Below are positions 17,796 through 32,680 of a DNA stretch of 64,000 nucleotides, in pieces. The position numbers were made by a program, and so were the translations under genes. This stretch comes from Aliihoeflea sp. 2WW (lineage in GTDB: Bacteria > Pseudomonadota > Alphaproteobacteria > Rhizobiales > Rhizobiaceae): contig NZ_AYOD01000054.1 in the NCBI RefSeq assembly GCF_000497755.1, positions 1 to 64,000 of the forward strand, in the 5' to 3' direction. The notes beneath the pieces are model-generated. The model saw only the letters and a list, made by a program, of their open reading frames with translations, did no database searches and was not told the DNA's origin. Position 1 is the first letter of the stretch, and every line of letters starts with the position of its first letter.

Positions 17796-18803
17796 CTATT
17801 TCGAAAACCGATACTCGGTCGCCTGTTCATAGACCTCGCCGGGTCTCAGCACCGCCTGCGGAAAATCCGCATTGTTCGGCGCATCCGGCCATATTTGCGG
17901 TTCGAGGCAGAGCCCGGCAAACGCGCCATAGTTGCGCCCGCCAAGCCCGCCTTCGACGGCAAGCTTGTGCCCGGCATAGAACTGCACGCCCGGCTCCGTC
18001 GTCCAGACCTCCATCGCAACGCCGGACCGTGCGCCTTCGAGCCGAACCGCCTTCGTCAAAGGCCGACGGCCAGCGGCAAGGCACCAGTTGTGGTCATAAA
18101 CGAACTGCGACCCGTCTTCCTGCCAGGCGATCTCGCGCATCCCGCGAAAATCGAACGGCGTCCCCCCCACATCCAGCGTGCCGCCCGTTGGTATCCATTC
18201 TCCGTCGACCGGCACGTATCGGTCGCCATCGATCGTCAGCCGATGGCCGAGCACGTCGCCCGCCCCCCCATCGTCGAGATTGAAATAGGAGTGGTGCGCA
18301 AGGTTGCAGAGCGTCGGCGAGTCGGTCCGCGCCGAAAGCGCAACCTTCAACGCACCGTCTTCGAGCGTGTAGAGGCATTCTATGTCGAGATTTCCGGGAA
18401 ACCCCATCTCGCCGTTACGATCCGCCAGCGTCAGCCGCACGAAATCGGGGCCCGTCTCGGCAATCGTCCAGACCCGCTTGCCGATCCCCTTGATGCCGCC
18501 ATGCAGGAGATGCTTGCCGAGGAAATTCGTGTCGACCTGAACCGTCCGGCCATCGAGGTCGAACCGGCCATGCCTGATCCGGTTGGCGTAGCGTCCCGCG
18601 ATCGCCCCGAAAAAGGGCGAGCGGACGGGATAGTCCTCGAAGCGATCGAAGCCGAGCACCAGCGGCGGCTCGTGGCCGGCAAGGCGCAGATCCTGCACCA
18701 CCGCGCCCCAGGTCAGCACATGCGCCGTCAGCCCGCCGCCGGAGATGGTGACGCGCCGAACCGTGTCGCCATCGGCCGTGCGGCCGAATTCCTCGATGTT
18801 CAT
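17796..18803 (-). CDS. galM: Aldose 1-epimerase (mutarotase), likely for sulfoquinovose
   Basis: A 335-residue GalM-type mutarotase that interconverts alpha and beta anomers of free sugars. The family landmarks are GRYANRIRHGRF near residue 70, the catalytic His in NLAHHSYFNLDD and a late PGVQFYAGHKL. Its start overlaps the comC-like stop (ATGA), so it is translationally coupled to the sulfolactate genes. That makes a sulfoquinovose mutarotase more likely than a galactose enzyme. Galactose catabolic genes are absent nearby. The substrate is inferred from context only. Confidence 0.88.
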   Translation of the reverse strand: MNIEEFGRTADGDTVRRVTISGGGLTAHVLTWGAVVQDLRLAGHEPPLVLGFDRFEDYPVRSPFFGAIAGRYANRIRHGRFDLDGRTVQVDTNFLGKHLLHGGIKGIGKRVWTIAETGPDFVRLTLADRNGEMGFPGNLDIECLYTLEDGALKVALSARTDSPTLCNLAHHSYFNLDDGGAGDVLGHRLTIDGDRYVPVDGEWIPTGGTLDVGGTPFDFRGMREIAWQEDGSQFVYDHNWCLAAGRRPLTKAVRLEGARSGVAMEVWTTEPGVQFYAGHKLAVEGGLGGRNYGAFAGLCLEPQIWPDAPNNADFPQAVLRPGEVYEQATEYRFSK

Positions 18804-19804
18804 ACGGCACCGATGGCGCTGATTTCGTCGATCAGCGCCCCATCGACCGGGATACCGTCCTTCGTGAGCCTCTCGCGGATCGCGATGCGCCGATGCCCAG
18901 CCACCCGCGCGCCTTCACTGCCTGCAATCTGCTCTGCCATCTCCGCAAACCGCGCCAGCGCATGGCTCCCGAAGACGCCCGGATCAATGGCGATGATCGC
19001 CTGCCCGGTGCCCGGCGGATCGCCCGCCGCGTCGAAGAACGACGTCTGTTCGTAGCCGTAATTCGCACCGGTCAACCCGGCGCACAAAAGCTCGACCATC
19101 AGCGCCAGCGCCGTTCCCTTGGCGTCACCCAGCGGGATCATCGTGCCGGCCAGCGCCGCCTTCGCGTCCGTCGTTGGCCTGCCGTCCGCATCGAGCGCCC
19201 AGCCCTCGGGGATGGCCTCGCCCTTCTGGTTCGCGGCCATGATCTTGCCGCGCGCGACCTTGGAGAGCGACACGTCGACGACGATCGGATCGCCGCCCTC
19301 GGTCGGGCAGGCAAAGGCGATCGGGTCCGTTCCGAAGAGCGGCCGACGCCCGCCCCACGGCGCCATCGCCGCCGGCGCATTCGCAAACATCAGCGCCACC
19401 AGCCCGCGCGCGGCGAGTTCCTCCACGACGAGCCCCGCGACGCCGGCATGGTGCGAGCGCCTTATGCCGGCCATCGCGACCCCCTGCCCCGGCACTATTT
19501 CGGCGAGCTCGGTATTGGCGAGTTCCAGCGCCGGATAGGCAAAGCCGAACCCGGCATCGATCTTCACCGCGCCGGGTCGAACGCGCTCGGCGCGGGGCAC
19601 CGCATGGCCCTTCACCTTGCCCGCGCGCGCCTGCGCCGCATAGGCCGGCACGCGCCGCAATCCGTGCCCGCCCTGCCCGACGAGTTCGGCCCCGACCAGC
19701 GCCCGCGCGACCGCATCGGCATTCTCGATCGACGTGTCCGAAGCCGTCAGCGCGGCGGCAACCAGCGCATGCGCCTCGCCAACCGTCAGCACGCACTCGC
19801 TCAT
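18800..19804 (-). CDS. comC: (R)-sulfolactate dehydrogenase (ComC-type, LDH2/malate dehydrogenase family)
   Basis: A 334-residue NAD(P)-dependent oxidoreductase of the LDH2/MDG2 family. The substrate-binding text GQGGHGLRRVPAYA is near residue 43, RRSHHAGVAGLVVEEL near 115 and PWGGRRPLFGTDPIAFACP near 148. ComC-type enzymes interconvert (R)-sulfolactate and sulfopyruvate. It lies between slcC and galM with ATGA overlaps at both ends, and downstream of suyAB, which matches known sulfolactate gene sets. By sequence alone it could also be a malate or ureidoglycolate enzyme; the operon decides. Confidence 0.87.
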   Translation of the reverse strand: MSECVLTVGEAHALVAAALTASDTSIENADAVARALVGAELVGQGGHGLRRVPAYAAQARAGKVKGHAVPRAERVRPGAVKIDAGFGFAYPALELANTELAEIVPGQGVAMAGIRRSHHAGVAGLVVEELAARGLVALMFANAPAAMAPWGGRRPLFGTDPIAFACPTEGGDPIVVDVSLSKVARGKIMAANQKGEAIPEGWALDADGRPTTDAKAALAGTMIPLGDAKGTALALMVELLCAGLTGANYGYEQTSFFDAAGDPPGTGQAIIAIDPGVFGSHALARFAEMAEQIAGSEGARVAGHRRIAIRERLTKDGIPVDGALIDEISAIGAV

Positions 19805-20733
19805 GGCTGTTTCTCCAGATGCGCGATCACGAGATCCGCGATCATGTCGGAGACGCGCACATTCGATTCCTCCGTCACGCCCGCGATATGCGGCGTCAGG
19901 ACGAGATTGGAAAGCCCCTTGAACTTCGCGCCGTCCGCCGCCGTCAGCGGCTCTGTCTCGAACACGTCGAGCGCCGCGCCGCCCAGCGTTCCCGCGCGCA
20001 GCGCGTCGGCCAGCGCCGCCTCGTCGACCACCCCGCCCCGCGCGGCGTTGATCAGAACCGCATCGCGCTTCATCAGCCCCAGTCGCCGCGCATCGATCAT
20101 GTGCCGCGTCGCCTCGGTCAGCGGCACATGCAGCGAGACGACGTCCGAAAGCTCCATCAGACCGTCCAGCGACACATTGCGCGCGATCTGCCAGCCGGGA
20201 TGCCCGGCGTCGAGATGCGGATCGTAGGCGACGAGCCCCATCCCGTAGTCATGCGCCCGCCACGCCACTTCCTGCGCGATCGCGCCGAAACCGATCAGCC
20301 CGAGCGTCTTGCCGGCAAGCTCCCGGCCCATCATCCTCTGGCGCGGCCACTCCCCCGCCGCCACCGCCTCGCTTGACGTGTAGGCACGGCGCAGGAGCAG
20401 CATCGCATTGGCGATGACATATTCGGCGACGGCGAGGTTGTTCGCCCCCGTCGCCGGATGCACCGAAATCCCGCGCTCCGAGCACGCCTCCATGTCGATA
20501 TTATCGAGCCCGACGCCGAGCCGCCCGACGACCTCCAGCCTTTCGGCACCCTCCAGCAGCGCCCCGCGCACCTCCGTCCGGTTGCGCACGATCAGCGCAC
20601 GCGCCGTCCGCACCGCCTCCGCAAGCCTTTCCGGCTGGTCGACCAGCGTCGGATCGTAGAGCGTGTCGAAACGCGCCGTCAGCCGCGCGACCGCCGCCTC
20701 GTCCATGAATTCGCAGATGACGATGTCGGCCAT
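19801..20733 (-). CDS. slcC: (S)-sulfolactate dehydrogenase (SlcC-type, D-2-hydroxyacid dehydrogenase family)
   Basis: A 310-residue member of the phosphoglycerate dehydrogenase-like family. The NAD-binding motif LGLIGFGAIAQEVAWRA is near residue 146. The catalytic Arg/Glu/His set is visible around INAARGGVVDEAAL and LTPHIAGVTEES. SlcC oxidises (S)-sulfolactate to sulfopyruvate, which ComC reduces to the (R) form used by SuyAB. It starts 1 bp after suyB and overlaps comC by four bases. Confidence 0.88.
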   Translation of the reverse strand: MADIVICEFMDEAAVARLTARFDTLYDPTLVDQPERLAEAVRTARALIVRNRTEVRGALLEGAERLEVVGRLGVGLDNIDMEACSERGISVHPATGANNLAVAEYVIANAMLLLRRAYTSSEAVAAGEWPRQRMMGRELAGKTLGLIGFGAIAQEVAWRAHDYGMGLVAYDPHLDAGHPGWQIARNVSLDGLMELSDVVSLHVPLTEATRHMIDARRLGLMKRDAVLINAARGGVVDEAALADALRAGTLGGAALDVFETEPLTAADGAKFKGLSNLVLTPHIAGVTEESNVRVSDMIADLVIAHLEKQP

Positions 20734-20734
20734 G

Positions 20735-21916
20735 TCACGCGCTGCGATAGAGCTTCGTCATCGAGAACTCGCGGTGGCCGAGCGCCTCAGCCGCCGTGTT
20801 GCGCCCGTTCGCCGTGCGCACGATCATGTCGATCAGTGCATCGCCCGCCTCGTCGATCGTCATCTCGCGCCGCAGGATGCCCGACACGTCGACATCGACA
20901 TGCTCGCCCATCGTGCGCACCGTGCGTGGATTGGCGGTGATCTTGATCACCGGCACAATCGGATTGCCGATCACATTGCCCTGTCCGGTCGGAAACGTGT
21001 GGATCACATAGCCGCCCGCCGCCATCAGCGTGACGCATTCGGCCGCGGCCGACGAGGAATCCATGAAATAGAGCCCGTTGCCCGATTTCGGCATCTCGGC
21101 CGGCTCGAGGATGTCGATATATTTCGACGTCCGGCCAATCTTCTCGAGATTGCCGAGCGCCTTTTCCTCGATCGTCGTCAGCCCGCCCTCGATATTACCC
21201 TTGGTCGGCTGGCTTTCGGACAAATCGTCGGTCTTGAACTGCTCGATGACGTCGTCCTGATAGGCCTTCCACATCTTGTACCAGCGCTCGCCGACCTCCG
21301 GGTTGATCGCACGCGCCTTGGCGATGTGCTCGGCGCCGGTGATCTCCGACGTCTCGCCGAAGCAGCCATAGATGCCCTCGGGCAGGAGCTTGTCATACAT
21401 GTTGCCGACCGTCGGGCACGAGCCGAGCCCGGTCGTCGTGTCGCTCTCGCCGCACTTGGTCGAGACCCAGAGCTCCGAGATCGAGCATTCCTCGCGCTGC
21501 AACTCGGTTGCATAGTGGACGAACTCCTTCGCCTTGCGGCTCGCATCCATGATCGTCTTCAGATCGCCATTCTGCTCGATCGAGAAGCCCGCCACCGGCT
21601 TGCCAGTCTCGGCGATGCCGTCGACGATCTTCTTGGTCCAGCCCGGCTCGATGCCGATGACGACGACGGCGGCAACGTTCGGGTTCGCGCCGGTGCCGAT
21701 CATGGTGCGGAAATGCAGCTCCAGATCCTCGCCGAACTGCAGCCGCCCATAGGCATGTGGCAGCGCCATCGTGCCCTTGATGTTGTTGGCGACCGCCTCG
21801 CAGGCGGCGTTGGAAATGTCGTCGACCGGCAGGATGATGACATGGTTGCGCACGCCGACGCGGCCATTGTCGCGCCGATAGGCCTGGATCGTCCGATTGG
21901 AATATTTCGATGCCAT
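20735..21916 (-). CDS. suyB: (R)-sulfolactate sulfo-lyase, large subunit
   Basis: A 393-residue protein of the UxaA/altronate dehydratase C-terminal family, the catalytic subunit of SuyAB, which splits (R)-sulfolactate into pyruvate and sulfite. The start ATG at 21916 opens [20 protein letters not shown], the family-typical N-terminus. Codons further upstream would run into suyA. Visible landmarks are [39 protein letters not shown] (Cys-rich region near residue 170) and [20 protein letters not shown]. It follows suyA by 10 bp. Confidence 0.93.
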
Positions 21917-21926
21917 GGGTCGACTC

Positions 21927-22214
21927 CTACCAGCGCTTGGTCTTGAGATTGTGGACATGGACGTGGCCGCCCTTGGCGACGTCGGCGACGAACTTGCCGA
22001 TGTCCTCGCCATACTTGATCGCCGTGTCGCCGCTCTTGATGTCCGACAGCGCGACCTTATGGCCGATCGGCACGTCCGCCTTCGCCTCCAGCTCGAAGCT
22101 GGAATTGTCGTGCGTGACGACGCCGAGCATCTTCGTGCCCGCCTTCAGCCCTTCGACGACGACGACGCCGACATTGTCCTTGTGCTCGTGAACGAGCAGA
22201 TGGGGAATTGCCAT
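21927..22214 (-). CDS. suyA: (R)-sulfolactate sulfo-lyase, small subunit
   Basis: A 95-residue SAF-domain protein, the size and layout of SuyA ([40 protein letters not shown]). It complements SuyB to form the sulfo-lyase. A GAGGTCAGG Shine-Dalgarno site precedes the ATG. It is the first gene of suyA-suyB-slcC-comC-galM. A 21-bp inverted repeat lies 48 bp upstream, between it and the divergent GntR gene. Confidence 0.93.
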
Positions 22215-22261
22215 CCTGACCTCCTCGAAACCTCAAACCCGCGCTGGCGGTGCGGCGATAG

Positions 22262-22282
22262 CTCTTGTATAAGATAAAAGAC
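22262..22282. promoter_or_regulatory. Candidate GntR operator, suyA/gntR intergenic
   Basis: An inverted repeat CTCTTGTA-TAAGA-TAAAAGAC. It matches the perfect palindrome at 28242-28262 in the outer halves and in the 5-bp spacer length, with one mismatch in the right arm (TAAAAGA for TACAAGA) and one at the outer left base. It lies between the divergent suyA and gntR starts, where a GntR/UTRA regulator would bind. Confidence 0.75.
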
Positions 22283-22346: not shown

Positions 22347-23129
22347 GTGACGGGCGCACGCATGGAAGAATCGGACGGGGATTTCCAGGAAGAGCGCTTT
22401 CGCGCCGAGCGGACGGGCAAGCTCGGCTACCAGCCGCTTTACAAGCGCGTGAAGGCGCTGCTCGTCGCGCGCATCGCCGACGGCCGCTGGCAGGCGGGAC
22501 AGTCGATCCCGAACGAATTCCAGATCGCCGAGGAGCTGAACGTCTCCCAGGGCACGGTGCGCAAGGCCCTGCACGAGATGACGCTCGACAATCTTCTCGT
22601 GCGCCGGCAGGGGCGCGGCACCTTCGTCACGTCCTATGACGACGAACGCATCCTGTTCCAGTTCTTCAAGCTGACGCCCGACGAGGGCAGCCGCGAGTTC
22701 CCCGATTCGACGGTCCTGTCGCTCGAAAGCGGCACGGCCAACGACGCCGAATCCGATGCGCTCGCCATCCCCGCCGGCAACCCCGTCTGGCGTCTCGTGC
22801 GCCGCCGCACGCTCGGCGACAAGCCGCTGATCATCGAGCGCATCGTCCTGCCCGCCGAACTCTTCCCCGAACTCGACCGCTTCGAGACGATCCCCAACAA
22901 TGTCTACGGCCTCTACTCCAGCCGCTACGGCGTCACGGTCGCCCGCGCCGTCGAACGCCTGAAAGCCGTCGGCGCCGACGCCCACGACGCGCGCCATCTC
23001 GACTGCCCTTTCGGCATGCCCCTCCTCGAAGTCGACCGCCGCGCCGTCGGCCTCGACGACCGCATCGTCGAGTGGCGCATATCCCGCTGCCTCACCGAAG
23101 CACATCATTACTTGTCGGATCTGAAGTAG
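22347..23129 (+). CDS. GntR-family (HutC/UTRA) transcriptional regulator of the sulfosugar cluster
   Basis: A 260-residue regulator. The N-terminal winged helix (LGYQPLYKRVKALLVARIAD, then QIAEELNVSQGTVRKALHEM near residues 55-75, and LVRRQGRGTFV) is followed by a UTRA ligand-binding domain (residues about 100-250). A GTG start at 22347 has GGAG six bases upstream; an ATG at 22362 is the alternative. It is divergent from suyA and is the only regulator gene in the cluster. It probably represses through the paired 21-bp operators, with a sulfosugar or sulfolactate as inducer, but the ligand is inferred. Confidence 0.9.
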   Translation: MTGARMEESDGDFQEERFRAERTGKLGYQPLYKRVKALLVARIADGRWQAGQSIPNEFQIAEELNVSQGTVRKALHEMTLDNLLVRRQGRGTFVTSYDDERILFQFFKLTPDEGSREFPDSTVLSLESGTANDAESDALAIPAGNPVWRLVRRRTLGDKPLIIERIVLPAELFPELDRFETIPNNVYGLYSSRYGVTVARAVERLKAVGADAHDARHLDCPFGMPLLEVDRRAVGLDDRIVEWRISRCLTEAHHYLSDLK

Positions 23130-23176: not shown

Positions 23177-23467
23177 ATGACTTTTGAATGGGATGAGGCG
23201 AAGAACCGGACAAACATCGCCAAGCACGGGCTGAGTTTTGCAACCGCCAGTCGAATTTTCGAAGGTCCCGTCCTGACGGCAATCGATGACCGGTTCGAAT
23301 ATGGCGAAGTTCGCCGCAACAGCATCGGCGCGATCGAAGGCGTGTTGGTGATCGTGGTGACCCAAACCGACCGGGACGGCACAACCCGCATCATCTCCGC
23401 GCGCCCCGCCAAGCGCGTTGAAAGGAACACCTATGAAGAAGCGCTACGACAGGGAACTGACCCTTGA
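23177..23467 (+). CDS. brnT: BrnT-family ribonuclease toxin
   Basis: A 96-residue protein with the BrnT pattern. It opens MTFEWDEAKNRTNIAKHGLSF, continues with a central DDRFEYGEVRRNSIG, and ends in RIISARPAKRVERNTYEE. BrnT toxins are RelE-like ribonucleases that inhibit translation. The start ATG at 23177 was chosen over a longer frame because it gives the family N-terminus. It overlaps brnA by 35 bp. The pair sits between the GntR gene and the convergent oxidoreductase gene, inside the metabolic cluster. Confidence 0.92.
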   Translation: MTFEWDEAKNRTNIAKHGLSFATASRIFEGPVLTAIDDRFEYGEVRRNSIGAIEGVLVIVVTQTDRDGTTRIISARPAKRVERNTYEEALRQGTDP

Positions 23468-23696
23468 GCAACTGGCCGCCCTGCCGGACGACCAGATCGA
23501 AACCAGCGACATTCCCGAACTGGACGAGAATTTCTGGAGGAATGCGAAGCTGGTGGAGCCGGACACGACGCAGCAGGTGACCTTGCGGGTGAAGAAGTCC
23601 GTCCTCGATGCCTTCAAGGCGACCGGCAAGGGCTACCAGACCCGCATGAATGCCGTGTTGGAATCCTATGTCCGCACACTGCAGAGGCCACGTTAG
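23433..23696 (+). CDS. brnA: BrnA-family antitoxin
   Basis: An 87-residue antitoxin. An acidic N-terminal half (LEQLAALPDDQIETSDIPEL) is followed by a ribbon-helix-helix-like C-terminus (QQVTLRVKKSVLDAFKATGK, then GYQTRMNAVLESYV). It neutralises BrnT and usually represses the pair. The ATG at 23433 has an AAAGGAAC Shine-Dalgarno site; a TTG at 23418 is less likely. It ends 11 bp from the stop of the convergent oxidoreductase gene. Confidence 0.92.
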   Translation: MKKRYDRELTLEQLAALPDDQIETSDIPELDENFWRNAKLVEPDTTQQVTLRVKKSVLDAFKATGKGYQTRMNAVLESYVRTLQRPR

Positions 23697-23706: not shown

Positions 23707-24819
23707 TCACGCGACCTGACGGTCGCGCCACCCTTCCGCAAACTCCACCGCCTGCCCCGTGCGCGCCGAAAGCTCCGCCGCCGCGCCCATCTCGACCGAG
23801 CGCAGCCCGTCTTCGAGCGACACCTCCGGCACCCCGCCATCGAGCACCATCTGCCGGAACAGCCGGTGCTGGTAGAAGGTCGAGCCGTGATGGTCGCCGG
23901 CGGCGAGGATTTCGGGGTCGACCTCGATCACCCGCCGCTGCGGGCTCTTCGGCTCGCGCGGCGAGATGACGATTTCGGCCGCCCGCTCGCCCGCGCCCGG
24001 CCAGAACCGCGCCGGTCCCGGCACGAAGGCCTCGATCTTGCCTGCCGAGCCCATCGCCGAGACGTGCTCCTGGAACCAGCTTCCTTCGGAAAACATGCAC
24101 AATTCCAGCATCGCCCGCATGCCGTTGGCGAAATCGGCGATCACATAGGCATTGTCGAGAATGTCCGGCGCGCGGCCGTTATAGGCCTCGTCCTTGTGGT
24201 TGACGTCCTGCGCCCCCGACGCATAGATCCGCACCGGCTCTGACTGCGTGACGAGCCTCATCAGGTCGAAGAAATGGCAGCATTTCTCCACCAGCGTTCC
24301 GCCGGTCTCCGCCGCAAAGCGGTTCCAGTGGCCGACCTTGTGCAGGAATGGAAAGCGGTGCTCGCGGATCGTCAGCATCTTCGTCTCGCCGATCGTCCCG
24401 GCGCGGATTTCCTCGATCATCCGCGCGATCGGCGGCATGTAGCGATATTCCATCGCGACCCAGACCGGCGCCTTGCGGCCAGCAGCCGCAGCCAGGATGT
24501 GCCGGCTCGTCTCCGCCGTCGAGCAGAGCGGCTTCTCGACGAGGATCGGCAGGTCCGCCGGCAGCACGTCGAGCAGGATGTCGTGATGTGTGTGGTTGGG
24601 GCTGGCGATGACGAGCACATCGGCGAGCCCCGCATCCATCAGCGCGCGATGGTCGGCAAACTGCCGCGCGCCGCCGGAGAGCGCCGCAGCGCGCTCGCGC
24701 ATCCCCTCGTCCGGATCGCTCACGGCGACGATTTCCGTATCGGGCAACAGCATGATGTTGCGGATATGCTCCTGCCCCATCATGCCCGAACCGATGATCG
24801 CATAGCGCAGTTTCGACAT
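23707..24819 (-). CDS. Gfo/Idh/MocA-family protein, candidate NAD-dependent sulfoquinovosidase
   Basis: A 370-residue protein with an N-terminal Rossmann fold (AIIGSGMMGQEHIRNI, residues 7-22), the EKPLC motif near residue 95 and a C-terminal Gfo/Idh/MocA domain (TGGTLVEKCCHFFDLMR near residue 173). The family covers sugar dehydrogenases and NAD-dependent glycosidases. An NAD-dependent sulfoquinovosidase family (GH188) with this fold has been described at the entry to sulfoquinovose pathways, and no GH31 sulfoquinovosidase is seen here. It is the last gene of the kinase-aldolase-isomerase operon, 11 bp after the isomerase. The glycosidase role is inference; a sugar dehydrogenase is the main alternative. 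Confidence 0.75.
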   Translation of the reverse strand: MSKLRYAIIGSGMMGQEHIRNIMLLPDTEIVAVSDPDEGMRERAAALSGGARQFADHRALMDAGLADVLVIASPNHTHHDILLDVLPADLPILVEKPLCSTAETSRHILAAAAGRKAPVWVAMEYRYMPPIARMIEEIRAGTIGETKMLTIREHRFPFLHKVGHWNRFAAETGGTLVEKCCHFFDLMRLVTQSEPVRIYASGAQDVNHKDEAYNGRAPDILDNAYVIADFANGMRAMLELCMFSEGSWFQEHVSAMGSAGKIEAFVPGPARFWPGAGERAAEIVISPREPKSPQRRVIEVDPEILAAGDHHGSTFYQHRLFRQMVLDGGVPEVSLEDGLRSVEMGAAAELSARTGQAVEFAEGWRDRQVA

Positions 24820-24830: not shown

Positions 24831-26228
24831 TTAGAACTCGAGAACCGGCAGGCCCATTTCGGCCGCCAGAGAGCGCAGCGCCGGCCGGTGGTCGCCATAG
24901 ACGAGGCTCAAATGATGCTCGAGCCCGGCCCCGACGATCGTTTGCGCGACCGTCTCGATCGGGGCATCGAAGGCGAGAACGCCTGCCGTGCCGGAAAAGG
25001 CGAGCGGGCGCCGTTTCATCTCACCGCCCGCGATCACCATCGTCGGATGCCCGCGCGCCTGGCTGATCCGCGCGAAGGTGACGCGGCCGGGCTTCAACGG
25101 AAACTCGAACAGAAGCGGCATCTTGCGGTTGGAATGGATCGCCGCCTTCGCCGTCACCGTCTCGTCGCGCATCGAAACCGGCGCCTGCCCGCAATGCCAG
25201 ACGACGCCCGTTCCGTCCTGCGCATCGAGATCCACCAGATCGACGAGGAACGCCGCGTCGCCGGTCATCTCCTGCAGGAACAGGTTGGTCAGCGCGCCAT
25301 GGACATCCGCCTCGCAGGCACACGGCACGCGCCGTTCGCCCATCATCCCGACCGGCCCGCAGACCGCACCGCCATATTGCGTGAACATTTCCGGCCAGCA
25401 GCGCACGGCGAAAGCCGAATAGCCGCCTTTCGAGCGCACGTCCTCCAGCGCCGCGCGCAGGCGCAGCGACCGATCGAGCTGGTCCTGATCGACACTTTCG
25501 AGATCGTCGAGCGTCGCGCCGGCCTCTGCCCGCGCTTCGCCGACGGCGCCCTCGCCCGCTCCACGCGCGGCGGCAAACAGCGCATCAAGCGCGATCGGGT
25601 CCACCGAAACGCCAGCCAGGCTTTCGAGCCGCTCGGGATCGTAGTCGCAGGTGAAGAACCCGTCCGGCCGCTCGCCGATCCGCCCGATCCGGCTGCCGGC
25701 AATGCGCGCCAGAAGCGCCCGCGCCCCGGCCCGCTCGGCTTCGCCTGCCTTCGCCGTCGCCAGAGGCAGCGCCTGCGCCTGCCTCCTCCCGGCCAGCAGA
25801 TCGCCGGCCAGAGCATCGACATCCGCCGTCGCGGGGTCCGCATGAACCCAGCCGAACGCGACGTCGTTGAGCCCCAGCGCGTGCGCCGCGAGGTTGAGCC
25901 CGCAAAACGCATTCAGCCGCAGCCGCCCGCCGGTCCGCGGCTCGGGAAACGACCAGATCGCGAGCGGCGCTTGCGCCTCCTCGGCGATCTTCACGGTCAT
26001 CGTCGCGTCGGTGAACGTCACCTGCACGATCAACAAAAGATCGAGCGCCCGGCCCTTCATTGCAGCCAGCGCACTTTCCGTCGCCGGCGCGTCAAACAGC
26101 AGAGCCTCGCCGCCGACAAGTTCGTGCCCCGCCGCCAAAAGCCCGCCCTTCAGCCTGCCGTAAAGCTCCTCGGCGTAGGTGACGTCGAACGTCGCGCGCG
26201 CCAGCGGCAGTAGCCCGATCCGCGCCAT
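24831..26228 (-). CDS. L-fucose isomerase-like sugar isomerase, likely sulfoquinovose isomerase (SqvD-like)
   Basis: A 465-residue protein of the L-fucose/L-arabinose isomerase superfamily, which converts an aldose to a ketose with a divalent metal. The C-terminal half carries family landmarks: FAVRCWPEMFTQYGGAVCGP, CACEADVHGALTN with the candidate metal-binding Glu, VVWHCGQAP, and a late GLEHHLSLVYGDH. The start at 26228 overlaps the aldolase stop (TGATG). Upstream frame extensions lie inside the aldolase gene. SqvD-type isomerases of this superfamily make sulfofructose from sulfoquinovose in several sulfoglycolytic routes. The adjoining YihV-like kinase makes this the best reading. Confidence 0.8.
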   Translation of the reverse strand: MARIGLLPLARATFDVTYAEELYGRLKGGLLAAGHELVGGEALLFDAPATESALAAMKGRALDLLLIVQVTFTDATMTVKIAEEAQAPLAIWSFPEPRTGGRLRLNAFCGLNLAAHALGLNDVAFGWVHADPATADVDALAGDLLAGRRQAQALPLATAKAGEAERAGARALLARIAGSRIGRIGERPDGFFTCDYDPERLESLAGVSVDPIALDALFAAARGAGEGAVGEARAEAGATLDDLESVDQDQLDRSLRLRAALEDVRSKGGYSAFAVRCWPEMFTQYGGAVCGPVGMMGERRVPCACEADVHGALTNLFLQEMTGDAAFLVDLVDLDAQDGTGVVWHCGQAPVSMRDETVTAKAAIHSNRKMPLLFEFPLKPGRVTFARISQARGHPTMVIAGGEMKRRPLAFSGTAGVLAFDAPIETVAQTIVGAGLEHHLSLVYGDHRPALRSLAAEMGLPVLEF

Positions 26229-27268
26229 CACGCGCCTCCCATGCCGGAATAGGAGTGCCGGAACGACGCATCCGCATGGGCAATTTCCGCTTTGCCGCCA
26301 TAAAGCGGCGTATCGAACCATGGCATGGCATGTTCGTCCGTCAACGCGTTGATCCGCTTCACATAAGGCAGGCTCGTCTGCCGCAGGCCGGCGCGGATCG
26401 CGTCCCAGTCCGGAAACGCCTTGAACGGCTCCGACCAGATCGCGCGACCGGCCAGATACCCGGAGGCCCCAGCCGCATAGGCATGCTTCAGCACCGCCTC
26501 GAATTCCGCCATCCCGGCTCCCGCCGAAAGCATCACCCACGGACGCGCCGCAATCCGGCCCATCTCGTCGAACAGCTTTTGCGTCGCGCCGTCGGTTCCG
26601 TCGCCGATGCCCTTGGCCGGCACCGGGCTTTCCAGCTTGAAGATGTCGATGCCGAAGGCCGGATCGGCGAAGCGCCGCACGCTTTCGAGAACGTTGTCGG
26701 CCTGCTTCGCCGCCATCTCCACATAGTCCTTCGTCTGGTCCGCCTCGCCGGGCAGCGGATAGACGAGAAGTTCGAAAAGATAGGGAATGTCATAGGCTTG
26801 GCAGGCTTCGCCGATTCGCTTCGCGAAGTCCTCCTGCGCCCGGCAATTGGCCGCATCCGTATCCGGCCGATACCAGGCCAGCACCTTCACCGCGTCGCCG
26901 CCGGCGCGCTTGATCTTCTCCACCGACCAGTCGTCGATCTCGTCCGAAAGCCGCCCCGTCGCGGTTTCGCGGAAGATCGAATCCTCCAGCGTCACGATCA
27001 TGCCCTTGGCGGGCGAGGCGACGGAGAGGCCGCGCGGCAGCGCGAAATGCGGGTCCATCAGCACGGCCGACGTTTCGGCCTGCAATTCCTCCACCAGCAT
27101 CAGCTTGAAGCCCGCCACATCCTCATAGGGCGCTTCAGCCGTCCCGCGCATCGCCTTGATTGGATTCTTGATCGGCGGCCGCTGGTCGACGGCCAGCATC
27201 TTGAACCGGCCCTTTTCGTCGGCAAGCCGCCGCAGGCCCCAAAGCTTGCCTGCCGAAAGTGTGGTCAT
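26228..27268 (-). CDS. LacD-like class I aldolase, likely sulfofructose 1-phosphate aldolase
   Basis: A 346-residue protein similar to tagatose-1,6-bisphosphate aldolase LacD and the related YihT. Landmarks in order are FKMLAVDQRPPIKNPIKA, TSAVLMDPHFALPRG, GGDAVKVLAWYRPD, YDIPYLFELLVYP, FGIDIFKLESPVPA with a candidate Schiff-base Lys, and WVMLSAGAGMAEFEAVLKHA. The predicted reaction splits sulfofructose 1-phosphate into dihydroxyacetone phosphate and sulfolactaldehyde. The ATG at 27268 overlaps the kinase stop (ATGA), so the two are translationally coupled. A tagatose pathway is less likely because the kinase is of sulfofructose type. Confidence 0.84.
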   Translation of the reverse strand: MTTLSAGKLWGLRRLADEKGRFKMLAVDQRPPIKNPIKAMRGTAEAPYEDVAGFKLMLVEELQAETSAVLMDPHFALPRGLSVASPAKGMIVTLEDSIFRETATGRLSDEIDDWSVEKIKRAGGDAVKVLAWYRPDTDAANCRAQEDFAKRIGEACQAYDIPYLFELLVYPLPGEADQTKDYVEMAAKQADNVLESVRRFADPAFGIDIFKLESPVPAKGIGDGTDGATQKLFDEMGRIAARPWVMLSAGAGMAEFEAVLKHAYAAGASGYLAGRAIWSEPFKAFPDWDAIRAGLRQTSLPYVKRINALTDEHAMPWFDTPLYGGKAEIAHADASFRHSYSGMGGA

Positions 27269-28170
27269 GCCTGCGATCCTCCGCGCATCTTCAAGAATTC
27301 TTCCAGTTCGGCGCGGGTCGGAATGCCCGCTCGTCCGCCGAACCGCGTGCATTTCAGCGCCGCGGCCGCCGAGGCGAAGCGGATCGCCCCGCGCGTCTCC
27401 AGCCCTTCGGCGAGCGCCACGGTCAGCGCGCCATGCCAGACGTCGCCCGCGCCAAGCGTATCGACGACCTCGACGTGGAAGGCCGGCTCATGCGCGATCG
27501 AGTCGCCCTCGAAGAACAAAGTCCCCTCCGCGCCGATCGTCACCGAAAGATGCGCCGCGCACCGATCGCGCAACCGCATCAGCCCTTCCCGCGGATCGTC
27601 CGTCCCGGTCATCTCGCGCAGCGCCTGCGCCGACAGCGCGACATGGCTCGCCGCATCGAGAAGGCTCGCATCGAAAGGCGGCCGGTCGACATCGAGCACG
27701 GCCGGCAGACCCGCCGCACGCGCCAGATCGAAGAGGTGCCGTGCGCCTTCCTCCCAGCGAATGTCACCCATCACCGCGCCGGTCCCGGCCGGCAATTCGC
27801 CCGGCAGCCAGTCCGTCGCCGTCGGGATCGACCAGTCGCCATAATTGACGATCATCCGCTCACCCGCCGCGTCGATGAATACGGAGGATAGCGGCGAACG
27901 ATGTCCCGCGAACCGCCGCAGCCCGGCACAATCCACGCCCTCGGCCAGAAGCCCGTCAATGATCTGCCCGGCCACCACATCGTCGCCGAGGCGGCCGATC
28001 ATGTGCGCCTTGTGCCCCAGCCGCGCCGCGGTCGCCGCCGCATTGGCGGCCAGCCCACCGCCCACCACCTGCATGTCGCGGGCACGGTATTTCTCAGCGC
28101 GGTCCGGCATCCGGTCGACCGAAAAGACATAGTCGACGACCGCGATGCCGATGAAGAAGATGTCGCTCAT
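27265..28170 (-). CDS. PfkB-family kinase, YihV/SqiK-like sulfofructose kinase
   Basis: A 301-residue PfkB/ribokinase-family kinase. The GAGD catalytic motif is in VVDTLGAGDVWHGAL and the N-terminal di-Gly substrate motif is in VVGGGLAANAA. It lines up closely with my memory of E. coli YihV, including NY near 109, DIRW near 138 and the end ALKCTRFGGRAGIP. Lys27, Asn109 and Arg138, which I recall as the sulfonate-binding residues of YihV, fall at exactly the same numbers here. The ATG at 28170 gives the family N-terminus (MSDIFFIGIAVVDYVF). It is the first gene of the kinase-aldolase-isomerase-oxidoreductase operon and is divergent from the importer. Confidence 0.88.
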   Translation of the reverse strand: MSDIFFIGIAVVDYVFSVDRMPDRAEKYRARDMQVVGGGLAANAAATAARLGHKAHMIGRLGDDVVAGQIIDGLLAEGVDCAGLRRFAGHRSPLSSVFIDAAGERMIVNYGDWSIPTATDWLPGELPAGTGAVMGDIRWEEGARHLFDLARAAGLPAVLDVDRPPFDASLLDAASHVALSAQALREMTGTDDPREGLMRLRDRCAAHLSVTIGAEGTLFFEGDSIAHEPAFHVEVVDTLGAGDVWHGALTVALAEGLETRGAIRFASAAAALKCTRFGGRAGIPTRAELEEFLKMRGGSQA

Positions 28171-28241
28171 GCACCTGTCGCACTGTTCGCGCGGATGACC
28201 TGCGCTATCTGCAAGCGCCGTTGATGAATGAACGGTAACAG

Positions 28242-28262
28242 GTCTTGTATCTTTTACAAGAC
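28242..28262. promoter_or_regulatory. Candidate GntR operator, kinase/importer intergenic
   Basis: A perfect 8-bp inverted repeat, GTCTTGTA-N5-TACAAGAC, in the 179-bp region between the divergent kinase (28170) and importer ATPase (28350) starts. A near-identical copy lies at 22262-22282 next to the GntR gene. The size and symmetry fit a GntR dimer site controlling both directions. Confidence 0.8.
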
Positions 28263-28349
28263 ATGCCATGATCAGCCTTGATCGGTGCCCTTGGACGGCG
28301 CCGCACTTGCGAATATGGTCCCGGAAAGAGGACCCTTTGGGAGGTGTGC

Positions 28350-29438
28350 GTGGCAGGCGTCGAAATCCGCCAGGTCGTCAAGCAGTATGGCCGCGTCGAA
28401 GTGCTCCACCGCGTGGACCTGTCGGTGCGCGACGGCGAGTTCGTGGTCCTGGTCGGCCCATCCGGCTGCGGCAAGTCCACACTTCTGCGCATGATCGCGG
28501 GGCTCGAAGGCATCACCGGCGGCGAGATCGCCATCGACGGCACAATCGTCAACGACATGCCGCCGCGCGAGCGCGACATCGCCATGGTCTTCCAGGATTA
28601 CGCGCTTTATCCACACAAGAGCGTCTACGACAATATGGGCTTCGGCCTCAGGATGCGCGGCACGCCGAAATCCGAGATCGAGACGCTGGTCCACGAGGCG
28701 GCAGACATTCTCCAGATCCGGCACCTGCTCGAGCGCCGCCCCGGCCAGCTCTCCGGTGGCCAGCGCCAGCGCGTCGCCATGGGCCGCGCCATCGTGCGCC
28801 GCCCCAAGGTCTTCCTCTTCGACGAACCCCTCTCCAATCTCGATGCCCAGCTTCGCGCCGAGATGCGCGTCGAGATCAAGAAGCTGCACCAGCGCTTCGG
28901 CACCACCATCGTCTATGTCACCCACGACCAGATCGAGGCGATGACGCTGGCCGACCGGATCGCCATCATGAAGGACGGCCACCTCCAGCAATACGGCACA
29001 CCGGACGAGGTCTATAACCGCCCGGCGAACCGCTTCGTCGCCTCCTTCATCGGCGCCCCGCCGATGAACATGACGCCCGCCAGCGTGTCGGCGGATGCGC
29101 AAGTGATCCGCTTGCCGTCGGGCACGGACGTCACCCCGCGCGGCGCCAACCTTGCCGCCTGCGCCGGCCGCGACATCGTCATCGGCCTGCGCCCCGAGCA
29201 TGTCGCGCTTGGCCATGACGACCCGTCGCGCACGCCCGTTTCCGGCCAGGTCGAGCTGGTCGAGCCCCTCGGCTCGGAAACGCAGGCGACCGTCCGCGTC
29301 GGCGACGCCCGCTTCACCGGCCGCTTTTCGCCGGAAGCCGGGCTGAAGCACGGTCAGGACGTCACGCTCGGCCTTGCGCTCGACCGCGCCCATTTCTTCG
29401 ACGCCGAAACCGGCGAGGCCATCCGCCTTGCCGCTTGA
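28350..29438 (+). CDS. Sugar ABC importer ATPase (UgpC/MalK family)
   Basis: A 362-residue ATPase of the MalK/UgpC type. It has Walker [10 protein letters not shown], signature [15 protein letters not shown], Walker [16 protein letters not shown] and the switch His in [11 protein letters not shown], followed by the C-terminal TOBE-like regulatory domain (residues about 240-360, with [10 protein letters not shown]). The GTG at 28350 has GGGAGG five bases upstream and was chosen over a TTG at 28278 that lies close to the operator. It is the first gene of the importer operon. Confidence 0.93.
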
Positions 29439-29489
29439 TCAGAGCATTCCGGCCCGCTTGTCGGGTCCGCAACATCAGGGAGTAGAGAC

Positions 29490-30749
29490 ATGACGAGACT
29501 GATTACCGGAACTGCCCTCGCTGCGATCATGACCATGTCGGCCGGCTCGGCCTTCGCGCAGACCGAACTGCGCATCTTCACCGGCGGCCAGCAGCGCCCC
29601 GACGTAATGCGCCAGATCCTCGACGCCTATCAGGAGCAGAACCCCGACGTGACGGTCGAGATCGAAGTCGGCGGCGCGACGTCCGAGCAGCAGCAGCAGT
29701 ACCTCAACACCGTCCTCGCCTCGCAGGATTCGACGCTCGACGTGGTGCTGATCGACGTCATCCGCCCCGCGCAGTGGGCCGCGGCCGGCTGGGCCGAGCC
29801 GCTCGATGAATATCTCGGCGACGAACGCGACGCGATCATGGACCGCTATTTGCCCGCCTATCGCGAGGCCAACATCGTCGACGGTGCGGTCATGGCGCTG
29901 CCCTATTTCGCGGACTCGCAGTTCCTCTACTACCGCACCGACCTTCTCGAAAAGCACGGCGTCGAGCCGCCGAAGACCTGGGACGAGTTGAAGGCAGCCG
30001 CGCTCAAGATCCAGGAAGCCGAGGGCAACCCCAACCTCGCCGGGTTCCTCACCGCCGGCGCGCCGATCGAGGGCACGGTCTGCACCTATCTCGTTCCCTA
30101 TTGGGGCGCGGGCGGCGAGCTTGGCGGCGAAGGCGGCGCGATCACACTGTCGGCCGAACAGGCGGCGCAGCCCTTCGAGCTCTGGGGCGACTTCAAGGAA
30201 GCTGGCGTCCTGCCCGCCAACATCGCCGAAATCCCGACCGACCGCATCCGCCAGGATTTCCAGGCCGGCAACGCCATCTTCGCCATGAACTGGGGCTATG
30301 TCTGGAACCGCGTCCAGAACGACGAGGACAGCCAGGTCAAGGGCAATGTCGGCGTCGTCACCCTGCCCGGCTTCACCGCCGACACGCCGGCCACCTGTAT
30401 CGGCGGCTGGCAGCTCGCCGTCTCCGCCTTCTCGGAAAACAAGGAAGCCGCGGTCGAGCTGGTGAAGTATCTCTCCAGCCCTGAAGTCTCCAAGCAGCAG
30501 GCGATCCTCGCCTCGCACATGCCTGTCTTCCCCGACGTCTACACCGACGCCGAGGTGCTGGAGGCCAATCCGTGGTTCGAGGACGCGCTGCCGGTCGTCG
30601 AAACCGCCCGCTCACGCCCCGTCACCCCAGCCTATCCGCGTGTCTCGGAAGTCATTCGCACCAACATGAACGCCTTCCTCGCCGGCACGCAGGATGGTGC
30701 GGCATCGCTCCAGGCCATTGAGCAGGGGCTTTCCGAGGTCATGCAGTAG
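29490..30749 (+). CDS. Sugar ABC importer binding protein, candidate sulfoquinovose/sulfoquinovosyl-glycerol binder
   Basis: A 419-residue family-1 extracellular solute-binding protein (UgpB/MalE type). A clear signal peptide ends near residue 23 (SAFA/Q). The mature part opens with ELRIFTGGQQRPDVMRQILD and carries family text such as YRTDLLEKHGVEPPKTWDEL and GGWQLAVSAFSENKEAAVEL. The role in sulfosugar capture is drawn from the divergent operator and the neighbouring genes, not from binding-site residues. SmoF-type binders of the same class are known in rhizobia. It lies 51 bp after the ATPase. Confidence 0.88.
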   Translation: MTRLITGTALAAIMTMSAGSAFAQTELRIFTGGQQRPDVMRQILDAYQEQNPDVTVEIEVGGATSEQQQQYLNTVLASQDSTLDVVLIDVIRPAQWAAAGWAEPLDEYLGDERDAIMDRYLPAYREANIVDGAVMALPYFADSQFLYYRTDLLEKHGVEPPKTWDELKAAALKIQEAEGNPNLAGFLTAGAPIEGTVCTYLVPYWGAGGELGGEGGAITLSAEQAAQPFELWGDFKEAGVLPANIAEIPTDRIRQDFQAGNAIFAMNWGYVWNRVQNDEDSQVKGNVGVVTLPGFTADTPATCIGGWQLAVSAFSENKEAAVELVKYLSSPEVSKQQAILASHMPVFPDVYTDAEVLEANPWFEDALPVVETARSRPVTPAYPRVSEVIRTNMNAFLAGTQDGAASLQAIEQGLSEVMQ

Positions 30750-30772
30750 GGGTTGAGAGCTTGAGCCCGGCC

Positions 30773-30921
30773 ACCCCCCTCTGTCCTGCCGGACATCTCC
30801 CCCTCAAGGGGGGAGATCACGCACGACATCCATTCCGCCAAGACGTTGGTGATTCGAGCGGGGCGACGACGAGACTGATCTCCCCCCTTGAGGGGGAGAT
30901 GCCTGGCAAGGCAGAGGGGGG
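30773..30921. repeat. Palindromic intergenic repeat, copy D
   Basis: The longest copy of the repeat. The arms match copies A-C, and the centre shares CGACGACGAGACT-ATC with copy C but has about 40 extra bases. It fills the gap between the binding-protein stop and the first permease. Its right edge supplies the purine-rich AGAGGGGGG just upstream of the permease GTG start. Confidence 0.85.
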
Positions 30922-30927
30922 TGCCTC

Positions 30928-31848
30928 GTGCTGACATCGACCACAAAACCCCTCCCCCTCTCCCGCCTCGAAAAATCCGAGCGCCGCCTCGGTCTCCTGA
31001 TGATCCTGCCGGCGTTCCTGCTGCTCTTCGCGGTCGTCCTCTTCCCGATCGGCCGCCTGCTCGTCACCTCCACGCAGCAACTGCGCCTCACCGAACCGTG
31101 GCTCGGCACGCCCTTCATCGGCCTCGCGCACTACCAGAAGGCGCTCACCGACCCGCGCTTTTGGGAAACGACGCTCAACACCTTCATCTACATCGCCGTG
31201 ACCGTCCCCGGCGCGATCGTCGTCGGCCTCGGCCTTGCGCTCCTTGCCAACCAGCCCTTCAAGGTCAAATGGCCGGTGCGGCTCGGCCTGCTCCTGCCCT
31301 GGGCGCTGCCGCTGGTCTTCGCGGGCCTGATCTTCCGCTGGTTCTTCGAGTTCAACCAGGGCATCGTCAACAATATCCTGATGTGGGTCGGCCTGCCCAA
31401 GCTCGCCTGGCTCACCGATCCCTTCCTCGCCACAATCGCCATCTGCATCGCCATCATCTGGAAGACGTCGAGCTTCGTCGCGCTGATCCTGCTGGCCGGC
31501 CTGCAGACCATCCCGAAATCGCTCTACGAAGCGGCCGAGATCGACGGCGCGTCGAAATGGCAGCAATTCATCGAGATCACGCTGCCGATGCTCCGGCCCG
31601 CCATCATCGTCGCCGCGATCTTCCGCACCATCACCGCCATCCAGACCTTCGACATCCCCTACGCGATGACCAATGGCGGGCCGGGCAATTCGACCGAGAC
31701 GCTCGCCATGTACATCCACAAGACGACGATCGACTTCCTCGACCTCGGCTACGGCTCGGCGCTCGCGGTGCTGATGTTCGTCGTCTCGCTCGTCATGACC
31801 GCCGGCTACCTGCGATACACACGCCGCGACCCGCGGCAGGAGGCGTGA
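30928..31848 (+). CDS. Sugar ABC importer permease 1 (UgpA/MalF-like)
   Basis: A 306-residue membrane protein with six predicted helices and the EAA loop EAAEIDGASKWQQFIEITLP near residues 205-225. The GTG start at 30928 has its Shine-Dalgarno-like AGAGGGGGG inside the right arm of repeat copy D. It pairs with the permease at 31850, which begins one base after its stop. Confidence 0.93.
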   Translation: MLTSTTKPLPLSRLEKSERRLGLLMILPAFLLLFAVVLFPIGRLLVTSTQQLRLTEPWLGTPFIGLAHYQKALTDPRFWETTLNTFIYIAVTVPGAIVVGLGLALLANQPFKVKWPVRLGLLLPWALPLVFAGLIFRWFFEFNQGIVNNILMWVGLPKLAWLTDPFLATIAICIAIIWKTSSFVALILLAGLQTIPKSLYEAAEIDGASKWQQFIEITLPMLRPAIIVAAIFRTITAIQTFDIPYAMTNGGPGNSTETLAMYIHKTTIDFLDLGYGSALAVLMFVVSLVMTAGYLRYTRRDPRQEA

Positions 31849-31849
31849 G

Positions 31850-32680
31850 ATGATGCGCCTCCCCCGCCCCCGCGTGATGGTCCTGATTGCCGGCCTCATC
31901 GTCGTCGTCAACGGCTTCGTTCCGGCGATCTGGATCGTGCTGACCTCGCTCAAGACCGAAGCCGAACTCCTGCGCTTGCCGATCACCATCCTGCCCGACA
32001 CACTGACCTTCCAGAACTACACCCGCGTCTTCACCGACCAGCCGATCCTCACCTTCATGTGGAACTCGGTCGCCGTCGCGACACTCTCGACGCTGCTCTG
32101 CGTCACCGTCTCGGCGCTCGCCGCCTACGCTTTGGTGCGCCTTCGCCTCCCCGCCCCCGGCCTCATCCTGTCGGTGCTGATGGCGATCGCGATGTTCCCG
32201 TTGATCTCGCTGATGGTGCCGCTCTTCCAGGTCATGCGCACCGTCGGGCTTCTCAACACCTGGTGGGCGCTCGTCCTGCCCTATGCGGTGCTATCCATGC
32301 CGGTCTGCACCATGGTCCTCATCTCCTTCTTCCAGGACATCCCGAAGGACCTTGAGAGCGCCGCGATGATCGACGGCTGCTCGCGCCTCGGGGCACTCTG
32401 GCACGTTGTCATTCCGCTGACCGCACCCGGCGTCTTCACGGCCGGCATCCTCGCCTTCGTCAATGCGTGGGACGAGTTCCTGCTGGCGCTGACGCTGTCC
32501 TCGCGCGTGTCGAGCCGCACGCTCCCGGTCGGCATCACGCTCTATCAGGGCGAGTTTTCGTTCCCGTGGCCCATCATCTCGGCCGCGCTCGTGGTCGCCA
32601 TCGTGCCGATCTCGATCATCATCGCGCTCTTCCAGGAACGCGTCGTCGGCGGCCTGACGCAGGGTGGCATGAAGGGTTGA
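31850..32680 (+). CDS. Sugar ABC importer permease 2 (UgpE/MalG-like)
   Basis: A 276-residue inner-membrane permease with six hydrophobic segments and the EAA loop ESAAMIDGCSRLGALWHVVIP near residue 175. Length and layout match MalG/UgpE. It completes the importer with genes 28350-31848. An alternative ATG lies one codon in. Confidence 0.94.
   Translation: MMRLPRPRVMVLIAGLIVVVNGFVPAIWIVLTSLKTEAELLRLPITILPDTLTFQNYTRVFTDQPILTFMWNSVAVATLSTLLCVTVSALAAYALVRLRLPAPGLILSVLMAIAMFPLISLMVPLFQVMRTVGLLNTWWALVLPYAVLSMPVCTMVLISFFQDIPKDLESAAMIDGCSRLGALWHVVIPLTAPGVFTAGILAFVNAWDEFLLALTLSSRVSSRTLPVGITLYQGEFSFPWPIISAALVVAIVPISIIIALFQERVVGGLTQGGMKG

Follow-up and report, generated by a model that had tools for sequence, protein, structure and literature searches.

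We analysed a window of 64,000 nucleotides from Aliihoeflea sp. 2WW (contig NZ_AYOD01000054.1; genome of 4.14 Mb in 73 contigs). We propose that a block of genes at positions 17796-32680 forms a single regulon through which sulfoquinovosyl glycerol (SQ-glycerol) and sulfoquinovose (SQ) are taken up and fully broken down, with one step encoded elsewhere in the genome (estimated probability about 0.84). Few organosulfur compounds are as abundant as SQ, and sulfoglycolysis is generally portrayed as a task shared by two species. An initial annotation of the window had listed a sugar importer, sugar-converting enzymes, sulfolactate dehydrogenases, a sulfo-lyase and a regulator in the block, and Pfam profile search confirmed these gene families at their coordinates. 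Families, key residues, gene order, two palindromes and their conservation were read directly from the DNA.

In the proposed pathway, an ATP-binding cassette (ABC) importer of the SmoF type would take up SQ-glycerol, and SqgA would split it into SQ and glycerol. A mutarotase and an isomerase resembling SftI and SqvD would convert SQ to sulfofructose (SF), a YihV-like kinase would phosphorylate SF to sulfofructose-1-phosphate (SFP), and a class I aldolase would cleave SFP to dihydroxyacetone phosphate (DHAP) and sulfolactaldehyde (SLA). SLA would be oxidized to (S)-sulfolactate by an unlinked GabD-type dehydrogenase encoded on contig 3. SlcC and ComC would then invert (S)-sulfolactate by way of sulfopyruvate to (R)-sulfolactate, from which SuyAB would release pyruvate and sulfite. 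A GntR regulator acting on two copies of TCTTGTATNNNNTACAAGA would jointly control the upper and lower halves. From gene families and their context we infer all substrates, the way the flux runs, the part played by GabD, the binding of the regulator and the fate of sulfite.

The genes for the kinase, the aldolase, the isomerase and SqgA lie on the minus strand and overlap or are 11 bases apart. On the same strand are suyA, suyB, slcC, comC and the mutarotase gene, with overlaps or gaps of up to about 10 bases. The four importer genes, divergent from the kinase gene, and gntR, divergent from suyA, occupy the plus strand.

Substrate and upper pathway

What the initial annotation had called a candidate glycosidase can be specified as SqgA, a GH188-type sulfoquinovosidase dependent on nicotinamide adenine dinucleotide (NAD) (23707-24819, minus strand). 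It is a Gfo/Idh/MocA-fold protein (Gfo/Idh/MocA, E = 1.9e-22), and its best PDB matches were 8qc3 (E = 1.4e-126), 8qc2 (E = 2.7e-124; named as a GH188 structure in PMC11465081) and 8zn9 (E = 1.4e-120), the following match reaching only 7e-18. Eight residues reported to contact SQ or NAD-side groups (PMC10755693) were checked, namely K107, Y136, R166, L170, K172, E189, H193 and H321. All eight are kept in the window SqgA, and likewise in 66 of 66 aligned relatives (two of the 68 loci with SqgA were excluded by a length filter). Glu163, which PMC10755693 names as well, was left out of the check: numbered with the same offset as the eight others, this glutamate would be 164.

The solute-binding protein of the importer (29490-30749, plus strand) is SmoF-like and a probable binder of SQ-glycerol. 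Its best PDB match was SmoF (7nbz, E = 1.9e-121, 409 bits), with the next match at 223 bits. Taken together with the SftI-like isomerase, the YihV-like kinase and the class I aldolase, SqgA and this binding protein point to SQ as the likely substrate.

The isomerase (24831-26228, minus strand) gave a sub-threshold match to Fucose_iso_C in Pfam (27 vs. 29.3 bits), and its predicted structure (predicted local distance difference test score, pLDDT, of 93.3) has the fold of L-arabinose/L-fucose isomerases. The sole NCBIfam model matched at E <= 0.001 was that of SftI (NF048012), with 246 bits against a cut-off of 700. Judged by this model, the enzyme belongs to a subfamily homologous to SftI and is not an equivalog. 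The initial annotation had expected it to stand apart from ordinary fucose and arabinose isomerases, and the hidden Markov model (HMM) score favors this, although it lies below the cut-off of the model and comes from a comparison with the model, not with a characterised SftI or SqvD sequence. No match to YihS, to YihQ (the GH31 sulfoquinovosidase) or to the YihU reductase was found at E 0.01 in the window, which was the only DNA searched for them.

Related isomerases were scored against the same model, with 252 bits for locus L146, 288 for Zymomonas, 289 for L037 and 343 for Chlorohelix, and 104-134 bits for four distant isomerases (Listeria, Klebsiella, L069 and L071). The split by gene context is less clean than the scores, which weakens this comparison: around the high scorer L037, the loci examined for its group show neither kinase nor aldolase nor SqgA, and the low scorer L069 has a PfkB kinase about 2 kb away that is 42% identical to the window kinase. 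The group of L037 is a separate isomerase subgroup (L036-L045), 44-47% identical to the window enzyme and scoring well to the SftI model, near which no kinase, aldolase or SqgA was found in four stretches examined (L065-L068). The closest named isomerases come from a Rhizobiaceae metagenome-assembled genome (MAG; 95%) and from Mesorhizobium sp. YIM 152430 and Aliihoeflea sp. 40Bstr573 (91% each). Within the genus, three of the four further genomes carry the isomerase; across the order of the host, 55 of 397 genomes have a match of any strength, and 31, the window's own counted, have one of at least 44% identity.

For the kinase (27265-28170, minus strand; PfkB, E = 2.2e-42), YihV is the nearest solved structure (7ag6, E = 4.6e-62), and it shares 42% identity with E. 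coli YihV over 290 amino acids. This agrees with the YihV-like kinase of the initial annotation, and we regard the enzyme as a putative SF kinase. The putative sulfonate-contact residues of YihV (Lys27, Asn109 and Arg138) look kept; a search of the literature at hand gave no mention of them, and they were excluded as evidence. The SFP aldolase candidate, a class I enzyme of the LacD/YihT type (26228-27268, minus strand; DeoC/LacD, E = 2.1e-25), matched 8tnf (E = 1.3e-88), tagatose-bisphosphate aldolases (about 4e-39) and YihT (1.4e-22) in the PDB. It is homologous to YihT at 28-30% identity, and a lysine aligned with what we take to be Lys193 of YihT is kept. The kinase belongs to PF00294 and the aldolase to PF01791, and not to PF00365 (SqiK) and PF01116 (SqiA), the pair that marks the second type of Embden-Meyerhof-Parnas sulfoglycolysis (sulfo-EMP2).

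The mutarotase gene (17796-18803, minus strand) encodes an aldose 1-epimerase family protein (Aldose_epim, E = 1.4e-72) that is 23% identical to YihR over 278 columns; its probable action on SQ follows from context. The remaining importer genes, all on the plus strand, encode a MalK-type ATPase (28350-29438; ABC_tran, E = 7.7e-34, plus OB_MalK and TOBE_2) and two permeases (30928-31848, BPD_transp_1, E = 9.2e-21; 31850-32680, BPD_transp_1, E = 2.3e-15).

The resemblance of the aldolase to tagatose-bisphosphate aldolases would also suit a route in which sulfofucose is the true substrate, isomerised to sulfotagatose, phosphorylated and cleaved by a LacD-like aldolase. In Paracoccus wurundjeri, PF00294 and PF01791 genes are clustered with SlcC, ComC and SuyAB in a sulfofucose-induced region, but neither protein was significantly increased on sulfofucose and the lysate showed no isomerase activity (PMC12421959). 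Since SqgA and the SmoF-like binder indicate SQ, and the residue that contacts the C4 hydroxyl of SQ is kept, we consider sulfofucose an improbable substrate of the window cluster.

Sulfolactate end, its counterpart in relatives and the putative operator

The lower half of the SQ pathway lies in four minus-strand genes. SuyA, the small subunit of the sulfo-lyase (21927-22214), is a separate open reading frame (ORF) of 95 amino acids, with 37.9 bits to the N-terminus of TIGR03248. SuyB, the large subunit of the (R)-sulfolactate sulfo-lyase (20735-21916; GD_AH_C, E = 5.7e-81), for which we place the start codon inside a longer ORF, reached 130 bits to the galactarate dehydratase model, far below its cut-off of 731. 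They are joined by a SlcC-like (S)-sulfolactate dehydrogenase of the 2-hydroxyacid dehydrogenase family (19801-20733; 2-Hacid_dh_C, E = 1.3e-55; every NCBIfam match under cut-off) and a ComC-like dehydrogenase that would reduce sulfopyruvate to (R)-sulfolactate (18800-19804; Ldh_2, E = 7.5e-93). The SlcC, ComC and SuyAB named in the initial annotation are thus present by family and order, while the specificity of SlcC and ComC is predicted from context, their scores lying under the NCBIfam cut-offs. By family and order, the SlcC/ComC-SuyAB module appears complete and is predicted to release sulfite and pyruvate.

We compared the block with 80 named relatives, the best of 491 relatives and hence a set biased to close ones, in stretches ending at 10-kb flanks or at contig ends. 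Aliihoeflea sp. 40Bstr573 and Nitratireductor arenosus are named genomes that carry the cluster. Among the genes searched for, those for kinase, aldolase, isomerase and SqgA are consecutive on one strand in 57 of the 80, so this order is not due to chance; a search for the same order in other genomes had been suggested by the initial annotation. SuyA or SuyB was found in 17 loci (SuyB in 14) and ComD together with ComE in 13, and no locus has both types. SuyA was matched in 17 of the 80, each with a GntR gene; two of these are cut by a contig end and one is a remnant. ComC occurs in 10 of the 17 SuyA/B loci and in none of the 13 ComDE loci (Fisher P = 0.001); among the 80 it was observed solely together with SuyA/B, and in some of the other seven SuyA/B loci it may lie beyond the stretch examined. 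The ComD and ComE proteins tested (L122, L144 and L146) are above the NCBIfam sulfopyruvate decarboxylase cut-offs. We take 12 of the 13 ComDE loci to be from Rhodobacteraceae or Rhodobacterales; the other (L136) is a MAG labelled Hyphomicrobiales.

ComC is required solely for supplying SuyAB with (R)-sulfolactate. The pattern of two ends is what would be expected if (S)-sulfolactate and sulfopyruvate were intermediates common to both, and it gives good comparative support for the predicted chemistry. Beyond the window, we think it reasonably probable that one-cell mineralisation of SQ is widespread in Alphaproteobacteria, built on a common upper module (SqgA, SftI-like isomerase, YihV-like kinase, class I aldolase, GabD-type dehydrogenase and SlcC) with interchangeable ends, ComC plus SuyAB of a Rhizobiales type and ComDE of a Rhodobacteraceae type. 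After ComDE, the route presumably continues through sulfoacetaldehyde and Xsc.

Two more distant plasmid loci were also observed. In Zymomonas mobilis (pZZM402, L159), an SftI-like isomerase (37%) lies with a class II aldolase, an aldose epimerase, transporters, a succinate-semialdehyde dehydrogenase and a Gfo/Idh/MocA protein with SqgA-like motifs, and the locus looks like a sulfoglycolysis locus. The Candidatus Chlorohelix allophototropha plasmid (L160) has its SftI-like isomerase (343 bits) adjoining a pyrophosphate (PPi)-dependent phosphofructokinase and a semialdehyde dehydrogenase, along with nitrite/sulfite reductase and siroheme genes, a phosphoglycerate dehydrogenase (PGDH)-like enzyme and an annotated threonine synthase. 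SqgA motifs were looked for in its Gfo/Idh/MocA protein and are absent. This is a possible sulfoglycolysis plus sulfite-assimilation cluster.

The GntR regulator (22347-23129, plus strand) carries a UTRA domain (UTRA, E = 1.3e-31; GntR, E = 4.8e-18). A 19-bp palindrome, TCTTGTATNNNNTACAAGA, occurs in the suyA/gntR divergent region (22263-22281) and in the kinase/importer divergent region (28243-28261). Allowing up to three mismatches, these were its only matches in the window (4 strand hits vs. 0.17 expected), and within one mismatch the two cluster sites were the only ones in the 4.14-Mb genome. The pattern was drawn from the kinase-side site, so the independent evidence consists of the second site and the relatives. 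We attributed the weaker genome matches (two to three mismatches, 7 strand hits) to chance because the reversed control gave 32 hits at up to three mismatches. A pattern with a different spacer showed no excess over shuffles (2 seen vs. 3.2 expected).

A GntR gene is present in 18 of the 80 loci, and in 18 of 18 a site with up to four mismatches lies upstream of gntR (shuffled mean 0.6, largest 1; 20 shuffles keeping single-base composition). Upstream of the kinase gene, a site within two mismatches was found in 16 of the 17 GntR loci with enough DNA (shuffled 0; the exception is L128), compared with 6 of 56 loci in which no GntR gene was seen (Fisher P = 2e-10, a value that is too small, since the loci are related; close relatives, L078-L080 for instance, each enter the count, which therefore does not consist of independent events). 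As one palindrome stands in both divergent promoter regions, the two halves of the pathway, upper and lower, appear to belong to one regulon, and we propose that GntR is the putative factor that binds both sites and co-controls them. The palindrome can serve in a search for further members of the regulon. Extra copies with one to three mismatches were seen kilobases upstream of the kinase gene in L096 (3774 and 4554), L138 (3694 and 4526), L099 (1762 and 3834), L140 (4065) and L148 (2061), perhaps at an operon for a tripartite ATP-independent periplasmic (TRAP) transporter.

The unlinked dehydrogenase and competing explanations

A family search of the genes in the block found no aldehyde dehydrogenase, an absence that the initial annotation had missed. 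The whole genome has 14 Aldedh matches, and a GabD-type enzyme stands within the stretches examined in 27 of the 80 named loci. With the cluster enzyme of L063 as query, an unlinked GabD of the host (G000:C3:67740-69197) was 68% identical and the next enzyme of the host 39%. The same GabD is 82% identical to the copies inside the clusters of two Nitratireductor genomes (L129 and L137), which lie between comC and the mutarotase gene in a gene order otherwise as in the window. A tree was built from 28 cluster enzymes, 29 others, two references and the host GabD (60 rows). In it the host enzyme is closest to the Nitratireductor pair, at support 100/98; a looser grouping (94/92) adds the cluster enzymes that come mostly from Rhodobacteraceae, so that it holds 26 of the 28 cluster rows in all and stands apart from E. 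coli GabD. We conclude that this GabD most likely is the predicted enzyme for the oxidation of SLA to (S)-sulfolactate. Arg171, Arg289 and Trp-Asn-Phe, proposed for RlGabD, appear by motif to be kept in the host GabD and are non-discriminating because succinate-semialdehyde dehydrogenases have them as well.

Several observations weigh against the proposed pathway. At the individual steps, the isomerase score is well under the SftI cut-off, and the aldolase is nearer to tagatose-bisphosphate aldolases (LacD) and an uncharacterised DUF2090 protein than to YihT. The best NCBIfam model for ComC, L-sulfolactate dehydrogenase, gave 185 bits against a cut-off of 500, and its best PDB chain is delta1-piperideine-2-carboxylate reductase, with the sulfolactate enzyme 2x06 fourth. 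The missing aldehyde dehydrogenase belongs here as well. In the GabD tree, the cluster enzymes of L063 and L064 are placed with E. coli GabD, and ten stand-alone enzymes share the half of the host GabD, which speaks against a dedicated role. A sister genome that lacks the isomerase (G399) nevertheless has this GabD, at 93%, and so do four other genera in which the isomerase is absent (G407, G408, G410 and G415, at 71-85%), so it must have another role too. A genome-wide pattern search found no operator at gabD; the only sites within one mismatch lie in the cluster, and the operator search therefore did not yield the SLA dehydrogenase. At up to three mismatches the palindrome is in no excess genome-wide (11 strand hits vs. 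32 for the reversed control). SuyZ-type exporters (PF03601) gave no match in the host genome. Neither SuyA/B nor ComDE was seen in 50 of the 80 loci within the stretches examined, although an absence is not demonstrated by stretches that stop at 10-kb flanks or contig ends. Mesorhizobium sp. YIM 152430 (L078, 13375-15601) keeps the rest of the cluster, but SuyB is absent there and SuyA is reduced to a remnant that matches 43 of its 95 residues; judged at that place only, it may have lost desulfonation.

The claim of the initial annotation that the block leads from sugar to pyruvate and sulfite was therefore only partly borne out. SQ as substrate and the overall flow are well supported by context, namely the SqgA residues, the SmoF-like binder, the YihV-like kinase, the shared operator, and the dehydrogenase candidates and ComDE in relatives, but the block alone is incomplete, as it contains neither a gene for SLA oxidation nor one for the disposal of sulfite. 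For the latter, TauE family proteins (8 matches in the genome, 7 over the cut-off) are uninformative since none is on the contig of the window. A Mo-co_dimer protein was not counted as a dedicated sulfite oxidase, as it is located in an apparent sox thiosulfate-oxidation cluster (L077; G000 contig 35, 184001-197000), whose presumed sox gene names come from reading the ORFs and not from a family search. This sox-like cluster is a possible route for sulfite.

The lack of an SLA dehydrogenase in the block and the 50 loci without either end would also be expected if two functions were merely neighbours, with SQ converted to DHAP and an exported C3 sulfonate, and SlcC, ComC and SuyAB serving external sulfolactate. 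We consider this unlikely: one regulator and a common palindrome span both halves, the importer and the upper pathway share a promoter region, and Nitratireductor L129 and L137 have the dehydrogenase inside the same gene order, whereas the 50-locus absence is weakened by the limits of the stretches. Family names alone (LacD, PfkB, GalM and fucose isomerase) would even permit an ordinary operon for tagatose, fructose or another hexose beside an unrelated sulfolactate operon. With the GH188 residues, the SmoF-like binder, a kinase nearest to YihV, the common palindrome and the ComDE alternative in relatives, such an arrangement seems very improbable. The single SQ regulon remains the likely reading.

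Next to the cluster lies glpK-glpD-glpR (13858-17739, minus strand; FGGY, DAO and DeoR families; GlpK above its NCBIfam cut-off), which may bring the glycerol released by SqgA into metabolism. A glpD gene is beside the cluster also in L078-L080, and glpK in L078 and L080. Between gntR and sqgA sits a BrnT/BrnA toxin-antitoxin pair (23177-23696, plus strand; BrnT_toxin, E = 6.3e-22), which is outside the pathway. BrnA, with no family match, was named by position and size, and among the 80 named relatives BrnT recurs in a single locus (L080, Aliihoeflea).

Comparison with known systems

If the proposed pathway holds, a single-organism, co-regulated alphaproteobacterial route would shift where sulfite and sulfate are released. 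The host, a rhizobium-related bacterium using a plant sulfolipid sugar, should itself release the sulfur of SQ as sulfite, the final step not being left to a second species. If the two-ended pathway also holds, much sulfoglycolysis in soil and sea would proceed without a cross-feeding partner. The comparison further offers a concrete candidate type for the SLA dehydrogenase, a step reported missing in P. wurundjeri (PMC12421959). In the open-licence literature we found no publication on the alphaproteobacterial ComC-SuyAB version, the ComDE-ended version or the operator, which is a weak negative; a cluster like that of the window may be drawn among the figures of PMC10755693.

The closest published system is the cluster of Actinobacteria bacterium IMCC26103 with a Y160 variant of GH188, called a possible new pathway in PMC11465081. 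It shares with the window GH188, the fucose isomerase, the SF kinase, the SFP aldolase, a D-3-phosphoglycerate dehydrogenase (SlcC-like), both sulfo-lyase subunits, ABC transporters and a regulator. It differs in having its own SLA dehydrogenase and, in the sulfonate site, Tyr at the position corresponding to Leu170; ComC is not named there as such, although a sulfolactate dehydrogenase is mentioned. The window, by contrast, retains Leu and has a ComC-like gene, and its candidate SLA dehydrogenase is encoded elsewhere in the genome.

Sulfoglycolysis by transaldolase (sulfo-TAL) with SuyAB in Thermotogae and Chloroflexi likewise combines SQ cleavage and desulfonation, as predicted in one organism, but there a transaldolase replaces the kinase and aldolase (PMC9594981). 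The tandem pathway of P. wurundjeri resembles the window in its SlcC-ComC-SuyAB end, in complete degradation by one alphaproteobacterium and in an SLA dehydrogenase that was unidentified there; it degrades sulfofucose by an Entner-Doudoroff (ED)-type route, and growth and sulfite release were established by experiment (PMC12421959). SqgA genes occur in sulfo-EMP and other clusters, and the sulfo-EMP cluster of Arthrobacter sp. AK01 has the GH188 sulfoquinovosidase, SF kinase and SFP aldolase in common with the window (PMC10755693), but it uses a YihS-type isomerase and exports sulfolactate (PMC12890257).

The initial annotation had regarded the window as a hybrid arrangement. The isomerase is indeed unlike YihS, but hybrids had already been published (PMC9594981, PMC12890257, PMC11465081). 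Hybrid sulfo-EMP/EMP2 clusters mix isomerase and aldolase types, as here (PMC9594981, PMC13372026, PMC12890257); they differ in exchanging SqvD and SqiA, and the Vibrio one releases 2,3-dihydroxypropane-1-sulfonate (DHPS). Because close versions of the cluster are already published, we regard the Aliihoeflea block as a well-supported variant of known sulfoglycolytic clusters and not as a new kind of system.

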